Assembly: GCA_008923315.1 (NCBI GenBank)
Contig: WBSF01000004.1
Coordinates: 1 to 64,000 of the forward strand
DNA length: 64,000 nucleotides
Origin: Betaproteobacteria bacterium SCN1
GTDB lineage: Bacteria > Pseudomonadota > Gammaproteobacteria > Burkholderiales > Thiobacillaceae
Direction: 5' to 3'
Part shown: positions 9,953 through 12,865 of the stretch, in pieces
How positions within the stretch are numbered: the first letter of the stretch is position 1
How the letters are laid out: each line of letters starts with the position of its first letter
The notes under the pieces: model-generated
The model's input: the letters and a program-made list of their open reading frames with translations, nothing else
Told to the model about the DNA's origin: nothing
The model's database searches: none
Translations under genes and position numbers: made by a program

Positions 9953-11866
9953 TTATTGGCGCGTCCGGATATCGTTGTCCAGGCGCGCGATGAAGTCATC
10001 CAAACCCAGCTGCCCCAGGTCCTGGTTGCCGCGCGCCCGGACGGAAACCGCGTTGGCTTCCATTTCCTTGTCACCGACCACCAGCAGATAAGGCAGCTTC
10101 TGCAAGCTATGTTCCCGGATTTTATAGGTAATTTTGTTGTTGCTCAAGTCGGACACCGCCCGGATGCCCGCCTGGCGCAGCCGGGCTGTGACTTTTTCCG
10201 CAAATTCGGCCTGTTTGTCGCTGATATTGAGCACGATCGCCTGCACCGGCGCCAGCCACAGCGGGAAGTTGCCGGCGTGGTGTTCGATCAGGATGCCGAT
10301 GAAGCGCTCCATCGAGCCCAGGATGGCGCGGTGCAGCATGACCGGAATCTTGCGGCTGTTGTCCTCGGCGACGTATTCGGCGCCCAGGCGTACCGGCAGG
10401 TTGAAGTCGAGCTGGATCGTGCCGCACTGCCACAGGCGGCCGAGCGTGTCCTTGAGCGTGAACTCGATCTTGGGCCCGTAGAAGGCCCCTTCCCCGGGCT
10501 GCAGATCGAAGGCCAGGCCATTCTTCTCCAGCGCGGCGGCCAGCGCGGCTTCGGCACGGTCCCAGCTCTCGTCGGACCCGACGCGTTTCTCGGGCCGGGT
10601 CGAAAGTTTGACCAGCACGTCGTCGAACCCGAAGTCGGCGTAGACCTTCTGCAGCATGACGATGAAATCGGCCACTTCCTGCTCGACCTGCTCTTCCGTA
10701 CAGAAAATGTGGGCGTCGTCCTGGGTGAAGCCGCGCACGCGCATGATGCCGTGCAGCGCGCCCGAGGGTTCGTTGCGGTGGCAGGAGCCGAATTCGGCCA
10801 GCCGCAGCGGCAGGTCGCGATAGGAATGCAGGCCGGAATTGAAAATCTGCACGTGGCCCGGGCAGTTCATCGGCTTGACCGCGTAGTCGCGGTTTTCCGA
10901 GGCGGTGGTGAACATGTTGTCGCGGTAGTTCTCCCAGTGTCCGGATTTCTCCCACAGGCTACGGTCCATCACTGCCGGCGTGCGCACTTCCTGGTAGCCG
11001 TATTCGACGAACCTGGCGCGCATGTATTGCTCGATCTGCTGCCAGATCACCCAGCCCCTGGGATGCCAGAACACCATGCCCGGCGCCTCGTCCTGCATGT
11101 GAAGCAGGTCGAGCTGTTTGGCGAGCTTGCGGTGGTCGCGCTTCTCGGCCTCTTCCAGGCGATGCAGATAGGCGTCGAGATCTTCCTTCTTCGCCCATGC
11201 CGTGCCGTAGATGCGCTGCAGCATGGGGTTCTTCGAATCGCCGCGCCAGTAGGCGCCGGCCAGCTTCATGAGCTTGAACGCCTTGGGCAGCTTGCCGGTG
11301 GACGGCAGGTGCGGGCCGCGGCAGACGTCGAACCACTCGCCCTGGCGGTAGATGCTGAGTTCCTCGCCGGGCTGGATGATGTCGTCGATGATCTGGACCT
11401 TGTAGCTTTCGCCGAGGTCGGCGAAGACCTTCTTGGCGTCCTCGCGTTCCCAGACTTCGCGCTGGATCGGCAGGTCGCGCTTGACGATCTCGCCCATGCG
11501 CTGCTCGATCTTTTCCAGGTCTTCGGGGGTGAAGGGCGTATCGCGCGCGAAGTCGTAGTAGAAGCCGTCCTCGACTGCCGGGCCGATGGTGACCTGGGTG
11601 CCGGGGTAGAGCTCCTGTACGGCTTGCGCCATCACGTGCGCGGCGTCGTGGCGGATGAGGTCGAGCGCCTCGGCATCCCGGGCGGTGACGATGGCAAGCG
11701 CGACATCGCCCTCGATGCGGTAGCTGGTGTCGACCAGCCTGCCGTCCACCTTTCCGGCCAGCGCGGCCTTGGCCAGCCCTGCGCCGATGCTGGCGGCGAC
11801 ATCAAAAACCGTGACCGCAGCATCGAACTGGCGGACCGAACCATCGGGTAGCGTGACGTTGATCAT
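9953..11866 (-). CDS. thrS: threonine-tRNA ligase
   Basis: Charges tRNA-Thr. The 637-residue protein has an N-terminal TGS domain ([14 protein letters not shown]), an editing domain with the HxxxH motif ([11 protein letters not shown]), and the class II core with zinc-binding Cys in [10 protein letters not shown]. The core also has motif 2 around [15 protein letters not shown] and motif 3 in [14 protein letters not shown]-terminal anticodon domain closes it. ATG 11866 gives the family N-terminus; eight more in-frame codons upstream lie within the leader. The 5' leader holds a Thr-rich short frame and an intrinsic terminator (11889-11915), suggesting attenuation by threonyl-tRNA supply. Confidence 0.97.
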
Positions 11867-11888
11867 TTTTCTCGAACCCCGGAAATGC

Positions 11889-11915
11889 AAAAAGCGCGGA
11901 CCGGCCGCGCTTTTT
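11889..11915 (-). terminator. terminator/attenuator in the thrS leader
   Basis: Perfect 10-bp stem AAAAAGCGCG / CGCGCTTTTT with a seven-base loop, followed by a T run. It ends 22 bases before the thrS ATG and lies downstream of tRNA-Val, so it would stop transcription before thrS unless read through. An upstream ACCGGCGC segment (11961-11968 region) is complementary to its loop and left arm and could form an antiterminator. Confidence 0.8.
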
Positions 11916-11970
11916 GGTTACTGCTCGATGAAGCATTGCAAAACGAATGCGAACAACTGTGCGCCGGTAA

Positions 11971-12006
11971 TTATCCAGTGACAGCCAGGGTAGTTCGCGG
12001 TGACAT
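11971..12006 (-). CDS. candidate thrS leader peptide (Thr-rich)
   Basis: An 11-codon frame, MSPRTTLAVTG then TAA, starts at ATG 12006 with a perfect GGAGG ribosome site seven bases upstream. Three of eleven codons are Thr (ACT ACC, ACT), two of them adjacent. It stops 55 bases before the terminator hairpin of the thrS leader. This is the layout of peptide-controlled attenuators: slow decoding at Thr codons when charged tRNA-Thr is scarce would change folding and let polymerase enter thrS. I do not know this element as described for this group; the call rests on sequence pattern alone. Confidence 0.6.
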   Translation of the reverse strand: MSPRTTLAVTG

Positions 12007-12070
12007 TTCGCAACCTCCGCGGGCCATGCGGCCCCTTGGGTGATACCGGGTCATCCCGACCCCTAAATAT

Positions 12071-12147
12071 TGGTAGGCGCGATTGGACTCGAACCAACGA
12101 CCCCCACCATGTCAAGGTGGTGCTCTAACCAGCTGAGCTACGCGCCT
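12071..12147 (-). tRNA. tRNA-Val(GAC)
   Basis: Complete cloverleaf with acceptor AGGCGCG/CGCGCCU, discriminator A and encoded CCA. The anticodon stem CCACC/GGUGG has loop UUGACAU, anticodon GAC. It is the first gene of the transcript that runs into the thrS leader. Confidence 0.95.
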
Positions 12148-12158
12148 AAGGAGCGCGC

Positions 12159-12186
12159 ATTCTACAGGCGGGGGATGGGGTGTCAA
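12159..12186 (-). promoter_or_regulatory. sigma-70 promoter of tRNA-Val-thrS operon
   Basis: On the minus strand TTGACA (12186-12181) and TAGAAT (12164-12159) are separated by 16 bases, placing the start a few bases before the tRNA-Val 5' end. The match to consensus is near perfect, as expected for a stable-RNA promoter. Confidence 0.8.
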
Positions 12187-12340
12187 GTGCAGTGCATCCT
12201 ACGCCGCACAGGCACGTATCCGCGTATCCGTTGAAGTTTGAATGTACGCGGTCGCCGCCGCCAACGGGCCGCTCCCCAAAACACGACGGCGGCGCATCCC
12301 GCTGCTAGACTGGCAGGCACATTCGTTCCAATGGCCTGCC

Positions 12341-12865
12341 GTGGACTTCGACTACGAATCGGCCCTCGCCGCCTGTGCCCGCGGCGAGGCTTACGCGCTG
12401 GAAAACCTCTACGCACAGGAATCCCGCTGGCTGCTCGGCGTGTGTCGGCGCATTCTGCGCGATGCCGCACTTGCCGAGGATGCACTCCAGGACGCCTTCA
12501 TGCAGGTCTGGCAACAGGCCCACACCTATGACCGCAACCTGGGATCGGCACGAGGCTGGATCTACACCGTAGTACGCCATCGCGCGCTCAATCTCGCGCG
12601 TTCGCTGGGCCGTGAAATCCCGCAGGAGGATCCGCATGCCCTGCTCGACGAGCCCGGGTATTCGGACCGCCAGCGCCGGGACAGTGCGCGCGATATCGAC
12701 CGTTGCCTGGAAGACCTCGAAGAGAAGCGCCGCGAATCCATCCTGCTCGCATTTCTTGATGGCTACTCGCACGAACAGATCGCGCGGGCGCTCGCCACGC
12801 CCATCGGCACGGTCAAGTCCTGGATTCGCCGGGGACTGCTCAGTCTGAAGGATTGCCTGTCATGA
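12341..12865 (+). CDS. ECF-type RNA polymerase sigma factor
   Basis: A 174-residue sigma-70 of the extracytoplasmic-function class. Region 2 is visible in AEDALQDAFMQVWQQA and RGWIYTVVRHRALNLAR, and region 4 in ESILLAFLDGYSHEQIARAL followed by GTVKSWIRRGLLSLK. I start at GTG 12341 because region 2 begins soon after; the frame is open to 12242 but those codons encode an unlikely Arg-rich tail. The stop overlaps the anti-sigma start by ATGA. It probably directs polymerase to a small stress regulon; the sensed signal is unknown. Confidence 0.85.
   Translation: MDFDYESALAACARGEAYALENLYAQESRWLLGVCRRILRDAALAEDALQDAFMQVWQQAHTYDRNLGSARGWIYTVVRHRALNLARSLGREIPQEDPHALLDEPGYSDRQRRDSARDIDRCLEDLEEKRRESILLAFLDGYSHEQIARALATPIGTVKSWIRRGLLSLKDCLS

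Follow-up and report, generated by a model that had tools for sequence, protein, structure and literature searches.

Within the 64,000-nucleotide stretch of DNA analysed here (the window), the minus strand of contig WBSF01000004.1 carries, in 5'-to-3' order, a promoter-like site, a tRNA-Val(gac) gene, a short leader frame, a terminator hairpin and thrS, the gene for threonyl-tRNA synthetase (ThrRS). The gene is presumably thrS given its family context and the operon order thrS-infC-rplT-pheS; the closest named ThrRS record is 88% identical over residues 57-637, and the host lies near Thiobacillus. The features are as follows:

12159..12186, minus strand: TTGACA-16-TAGAAT, a promoter-like site ahead of tRNA-Val (matches the consensus at 11 of 12 positions; putative function)
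12071..12147, minus strand: tRNA-Val (gac) gene (tRNA gene search)
12014..12018, minus strand: leader Shine-Dalgarno sequence GGAGG, 7 nt before the leader ATG (sequence)
11971..12006, minus strand: leader frame MSPRTTLAVTG, stop included, conserved in the genus and present in other families (sequence)
11993..11998, minus strand: region 1, GCGAAC, pairing with GUUCGC at 11954-11949 to form the 1:2 hairpin (fold, genus alignment)
11992..11997, minus strand: CGA-ACT (Arg4-Thr5), a rare Arg codon followed by the invariant, putative control Thr codon (codon tables)
11989..11991, minus strand: ACC (Thr6), second Thr codon, found only in this genome among the 44 genus leaders tabulated
11961..11968, minus strand: region 2, ACCGGCGC, the candidate antiterminator strand (fold, ribosome-position model, genus alignment)
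11949..11954, minus strand: GUUCGC, 3' strand of the 1:2 hairpin (fold, genus alignment)
11900..11910, minus strand: region 3, GCGCGGCCGGU, left arm and loop of the terminator and partner of region 2 (duplex, model, alignment)
11889..11915, minus strand: intrinsic terminator hairpin, RNA AAAAAGCGCGG-CCGGU-CCGCGCUUUUU (sequence, fold, genus alignment)
9956..11866, minus strand: thrS, the gene proposed to be controlled

The 204-nt gap between tRNA-Val and thrS comprises 64 nt up to the frame (holding the GGAGG), the frame itself, a 55-nt spacer, the hairpin and a further 22 nt before the thrS ATG at 11866-11864; the boundary at 11864 given in the original prediction is part of this start codon. 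The small frame with a ribosome site and three Thr codons that had been claimed there is read directly in the sequence as 11 codons and a stop (ATG TCA CCG CGA ACT ACC CTG GCT GTC ACT GGA TAA, with the ATG at 12006-12004). The terminator claimed at 22 nt before thrS was recovered by our own terminator finder and by folding at 11915-11889 (AAAAAGCGCGG-CCGGT-CCGCGCTTTTT as minus-strand DNA), though a consensus terminator scan over 11600-12500 listed none, probably because the A/U flanks of the hairpin pair into its stem. The antiterminator segment lies where it had been placed, at 11968-11961, with ACCGGCGC forming 8 pairs and one bulged G with GCGCGGCCGGT at 11910-11900; within the 1:2 hairpin the CCGG of region 2 instead pairs with CUGG at 11978-11975.

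A consensus promoter scan of 901 bases found a single promoter-like match, against 0.2 expected in shuffles, and TTGACA-16-TAGAAT is likely the promoter of a tRNA-Val/leader/thrS transcript. Since the scan found no promoter-like site between tRNA-Val and the leader, the latter is probably read from the tRNA-Val promoter, and one transcript starting there is the simplest reading. Downstream of thrS, in the gap before infC, a hairpin and the T-rich stretch after it (AAGGCG...CGCCTTATTTATTTT, 9940-9905, minus strand) form a possible terminator or processing site. The apparent start of infC itself (9851-9849, minus strand) is the rare codon ATC after GGAGAACGGCTC; other bacteria are known to start infC at non-standard codons.

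Chance alone seldom yields such a leader: when the 204-nt gap was shuffled 5000 times with its dinucleotides preserved, 21 of the shuffles held a Shine-Dalgarno-led frame of 7-24 amino acids with at least three Thr. The fold of the whole leader is moderately better than that of shuffled sequences (z -1.91; 9 of 200 shuffles as good). To see whether the leader recurs in the genome, we searched for GG-N8-ATG-N5-GCGAACT, one mismatch allowed, and obtained 10 matches against 6 for the reversed control; only the match at thrS was taken as a leader, and the idea of a repeated element was dropped.

To survey its wider distribution, we searched 260 genomes of the order, found thrS in 258, and assembled 109 thrS upstream regions over 41 families: that of the window, 28 from the search and 80 chosen to spread over families, the sample leaving out families f19, f40, f41, f43, f45, f46 and f47. 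Shuffles of these regions give 25.4 Shine-Dalgarno-led frames of 7-24 amino acids and their reverse strands 14, against 56 observed, and Thr makes up 17.1% of the residues in these frames against 4.9% after shuffling, a 3.5-fold enrichment. Thr is the only residue clearly enriched upstream of thrS, the next being Met at 1.4-fold. Frames with at least three Thr occur at 21 of the 109 loci, where 0.9 are expected and 3 was the maximum in 40 shuffle sets. By reading, and among the matches listed, a leader is present at 45 of the 109 loci and in 19 of the 41 families, with no recognised leader at the other 64; this list of 45 is our judgement, and the shuffle counts for Thr enrichment are independent of it. 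Examples from the sample are MFRTRTTTQSC, MSFRTTTTGTLYLG, MKHWRTTTTRHSHAS, MTPRTTTTICERR and MTPRTCTTTTSHYHRVNP; outside it, leaders were read in Vogesella alkaliphila (MFKRTTTTRISR), Burkholderia sp. BCC1644 (MTPRTLTETTSERR) and Paraburkholderia tagetis (MTPRTFTEITSERR).

Among 56 genomes of the same genus, 50 gave a thrS match, with usable upstream DNA at 48 loci. At 46 of the 48, a frame that starts with ATG and contains Arg-Thr precedes a terminator. Its length is 11 codons in 45 of these 46 and 16 codons in L084; at L127 the finder gave a shorter frame, the actual one having 11 codons with a second ATG inside. The codon table, covering 44 leaders with L084 and L127 set aside, has CGA at Arg4, ACT at Thr5 and TAA at the stop in 44/44 each. 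Position 10 is Thr in 35 of the 44, whereas position 6 is Thr only in the window and otherwise Ser (34), Cys (8) or Arg (1). The three Thr codons on which the original prediction rested thus resolve into an invariant one (Thr5), a frequent one (Thr10) and a private substitution (Thr6). Genus leaders contain one (9 loci), two (30) or three (7) Thr codons (n=46), which is few for a sensor.

That prediction had named loss of the frame or its Thr codons with retention of the terminator as the observation that would count against it. This pattern is absent from 46 of the 48 genus loci, an outcome largely in favour of the prediction. It is seen in L117 and L123, in which the leader frame is shifted while CGAACT, GCGAAC and the terminator are kept; in these two the leader system may be decaying. 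The tRNA-Val upstream of L117 also looks degenerate. Frame-keeping length changes were dropped as coding evidence: L084 (+15) keeps the frame, and L117 and L123 shift it. As to the hairpin covariation that the original prediction proposed to check, one antiterminator pair is C-G in 40 of 46 genus sequences and U-A in the other 6. In the 1:2 hairpin (GCGAAC:GUUCGC), each pair is kept in 36-45 of the 46 and the changes break pairs, none being compensatory. The six U-A sequences are near relatives (ThrRS 82% identical to that of the window), so they probably record one event. Seven of the 8 antiterminator pairs are kept in at least 40 of the 46 sequences, the outermost in only 8, and the six GC-core pairs of the terminator are invariant in 46/46.

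Simple duplex energies gave weak evidence for the antiterminator (mean z -0.63 over 92 distinct peptides; native duplexes ahead of swapped ones at 29 of 42 loci, p 0.005) and were replaced as proof by a ribosome-position model. Here the RNA is folded up to the terminator loop with a ribosome footprint at each codon, and P(2:3) is the probability that region 3 pairs with RNA near the leader stop or downstream of it. The duplex, model, shuffle, setting and genus-table/tRNA analyses draw on 109 of 121 loci, leaving out ten with a frame overlapping or preceding a tRNA gene or its remnant (L138, L143, L147, L151, L159, L161, L167, L189, L200 and L210) and two with a doubtful frame (L117 and L152); three of the 45 leader loci (L216, L222 and L263) are likewise absent from the duplex and model analyses. 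In the window, P(2:3) is 0.24 with no ribosome, 0.77 with the ribosome at Arg4, 0.80 at Thr5 and Thr6, 0.78-0.80 at codons 7-9, 0.27 at Thr10 and 0.24 at the stop. A ribosome at Thr10 therefore does not free the antiterminator in the model, where this third Thr codon comes too late to act.

Of the 92 distinct peptides, 66 have a higher mean P at their Thr codons than at the stop, and 9 have a lower one. For 42 loci of the order sample, mean P with no ribosome, at the first Thr and at the stop is 0.157/0.416/0.089, against 0.265/0.324/0.253 in shuffled sequences, and the mean switch is 0.241 against -0.011 (sd 0.026, 25 sets), a difference of about ten standard deviations. The switch is above 0.3 at 19 of these 42 loci, against 2.7 when shuffled, and at or below 0.3 at the other 23; that of the window was reached by 0 of 25 shuffles, and L187, from the same genus, shows none. 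The mean switch also exceeded each of 8 shuffle sets under six other flank and footprint settings. Individual loci depend on the flank: the window signal vanishes when the folded flank ahead of the ATG is shortened to 20 or 25 nt, which cuts an upstream hairpin in half, whereas L024 behaves in the opposite way, with 0.64-0.68 at Thr5, 7 and 8 and 0.37 at Thr6 under a 25-nt flank, and 0.06-0.07 under a 70-nt flank. In full-length folds the probability of the terminator is near 1 at every ribosome position, so the model requires the antiterminator to form first.

Together, the Thr-rich leaders and terminators in 19 of 41 families and exclusive folding that beats shuffles lend support to the peptide attenuator originally suggested, and we consider it very probable that this is a ribosome-mediated transcription attenuator which makes thrS, an essential gene, respond to charged tRNA-Thr. 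The sequences themselves show the frame and its conservation, an enrichment in Thr and the terminator, and computation yields the exclusive folds and their dependence on ribosome position; leader translation, stalling, read-through and the response to threonine are predictions from them. In the proposed mechanism, the RNA would start at the tRNA-Val promoter, pass through the tRNA and enter the leader. With ample Thr-tRNA, the ribosome would reach the stop and either cover region 2 or let the 1:2 hairpin form; the terminator would then fold and RNA polymerase halt before thrS. With scarce Thr-tRNA, the ribosome would wait at Thr5 (in the window also at Thr6), covering region 1, and, with region 4 still to be transcribed, the freed region 2 could pair with region 3 and let transcription enter thrS.

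The strongest competing explanation, which we nevertheless regard as improbable, is that the hairpin is a plain tRNA-Val terminator, with thrS on constant read-through and the small frame incidental. Indeed, tRNA-Val stands upstream, 17 to 133 nt before the frame, at 94 of 109 leader loci, and among the 64 order loci without a recognised leader it lies within 110 nt of thrS at 29, 15 of them with a terminator hairpin by our own finder; a plain tRNA terminator before thrS thus does exist in the order. It leaves unexplained, however, the Thr enrichment, the conservation of the frame and the ribosome-dependent fold. Moreover, 15 leader loci lack tRNA-Val, and once L092 (a contig end) and L176 (a tRNA remnant) are set aside, 13 keep both leader and terminator at places where an ARAGORN search of the 304-483 nt preceding the frame detects no tRNA gene. 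Because the tRNA-Val/thrS arrangement also occurs without a leader, the leader may plausibly have been gained or lost within that arrangement. The leaderless loci with tRNA-Val within 110 nt of thrS include L189, L191, L244-L247, L285, L287 and L288; at such loci thrS may depend on read-through of the tRNA terminator.

The least expected part of the finding, and an unexplained extra to the attenuator reading, is the fixed codon before the sensor. The Arg preceding the first Thr is CGA in all 39 order-level leaders with Arg there, compared with 9 of the 42 other Arg codons of the same leaders, 44 of 1899 (2.3%) across 44 thrS genes, most of which belong to the window's own family, and 2 of 189 in eight window genes; the first Thr is ACT in 38 of 44 leaders, as against 25 of 73 later Thr codons. 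These counts derive from 44 peptides chosen in part for an Arg-Thr, Pro-Thr, Leu-Thr or Lys-Thr pair; such a choice fixes residues and not codons, and as the kinship of the sequences is ignored they are not independent. Retention of CGAACU only for pairing with the downstream spacer was considered and set aside as at most a partial explanation (z below -1 in 16 of 39, mean -0.50), and pairing with the T-loop of the upstream tRNA is not needed as an explanation because leaders without a tRNA keep CGAACU.

We tentatively suggest that the rare CGA might be held by third-base selection before the first Thr, in most leader-bearing families sampled, as a codon brake that holds the ribosome and tunes thrS, although we would not presume it to be so. 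A slow CGA, read by anticodon inosine, could hold the ribosome at region 1 and match its pace to that of RNA polymerase, setting the basal level of thrS and sharpening the response to scarce Thr-tRNA. Excerpts of a study of the his leader describe CGA codons as read slowly and causing strong de-attenuation (PMC4046918). A separate rival account treats the whole element as a translation-coupled pause with no amino-acid specificity: basal read-through would be set by translation of the leader and its slow CGA, with a secondary role for the Thr codons. The invariance of CGA before the first Thr in spite of its rarity in the window genes, the P(2:3) already reached with the ribosome at Arg4, and the single-Thr leaders (3 of 45) all favour such a pause; yet several families have Thr runs (RTTTT, RTRTTT), and five loci retain Thr while lacking the neighbouring Arg (MRPPTT at 3 loci, MTPLTYT and MLKTDTTT), which makes this account very unlikely beside a Thr-specific attenuator.

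T-box leaders, which often act on a terminator, let aminoacyl-tRNA synthetase genes respond to uncharged tRNA; the thrS leader has no T-box covariance-model match, and sensing would here be by translation. Rfam searches of the window (E up to 1) gave no T-box or other cis-element on the leader strand and, besides tRNA, just one sub-threshold match, to HPnc0260, which lies over tRNA-Val but on the plus strand; in 20 related loci, at the gathering threshold, tRNA was the only family matched. Control by a T-box or by ThrRS binding to the leader can hence be all but dismissed, even though the E. coli translational operator, as described in excerpts of PMC11088916, controls the same gene by autoregulation: there ThrRS binds tRNA-like hairpins and blocks the ribosome, which is not attenuation, while the 22 nt between terminator and ATG hold, by eye, no tRNA-Thr anticodon-like hairpin near the thrS ribosome-binding site, unlike many gammaproteobacterial loci. 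As a separate observation, many gammaproteobacterial loci among L025-L083 seem by eye to carry a tRNA-Thr anticodon-like hairpin loop, resembling that operator, in the last 70 nt before thrS; a loose motif for it gave matches at 36 of the 79 named loci, of which at least the one at L018 (Burkholderia) is probably fortuitous.

Leader-peptide attenuators are known for the amino-acid operons trp, his, thr, ilv and leu. The thrS leader shares their four sequence-level hallmarks and is predicted to work like them: a short translatable frame led by a Shine-Dalgarno sequence upstream of the gene; enrichment of that frame in cognate codons, which holds order-wide whereas in the genus only Thr5 is invariant; an intrinsic terminator between leader and gene, even if the consensus scan missed it; and 1:2, 2:3 and 3:4 alternatives with an exclusive antiterminator that depends on ribosome position, as computed by the model and weakly by duplex energy. 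It differs from them in its target, thrS, in having one invariant and one frequent sensor codon in the genus, in the fixed CGA before the sensor and in its usual position downstream of tRNA-Val. Among aminoacyl-tRNA synthetase genes, attenuators are mentioned in excerpts of PMC1262725 for pheST in gammaproteobacteria and for trpS and leuS in Streptomyces. One precedent is thrL, proposed before thrS in Streptomyces lividans TK24 (PMC8079986), also a small Thr-containing frame (MKRVRPFLETTPGFVPAR) upstream of thrS; according to the excerpts of that paper, however, it belongs to another phylum, has a dissimilar peptide, lies on a transcript without a 5' leader, and its authors found no U-rich stretch after the hairpin. 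The original prediction did not know such a layout as described in this group, and indeed the titles, abstract openings and excerpts of the literature searched, including excerpts of PMC2330054, PMC3737546 and PMC11805395, contain no betaproteobacterial thrS leader and no description of thrS control in betaproteobacteria; those of PMC2965389 name threonyl-tRNA synthetase once, for E. coli. If our reading is true, E. coli regulates thrS through binding of the enzyme, and many betaproteobacterial relatives regulate it through a peptide attenuator that usually sits on the transcript of an unrelated tRNA gene. The thrS leader would then be useful for comparison as an attenuator that works with very few sensor codons, and it would serve as a natural test of whether attenuation is tuned by a slow codon at a fixed place.
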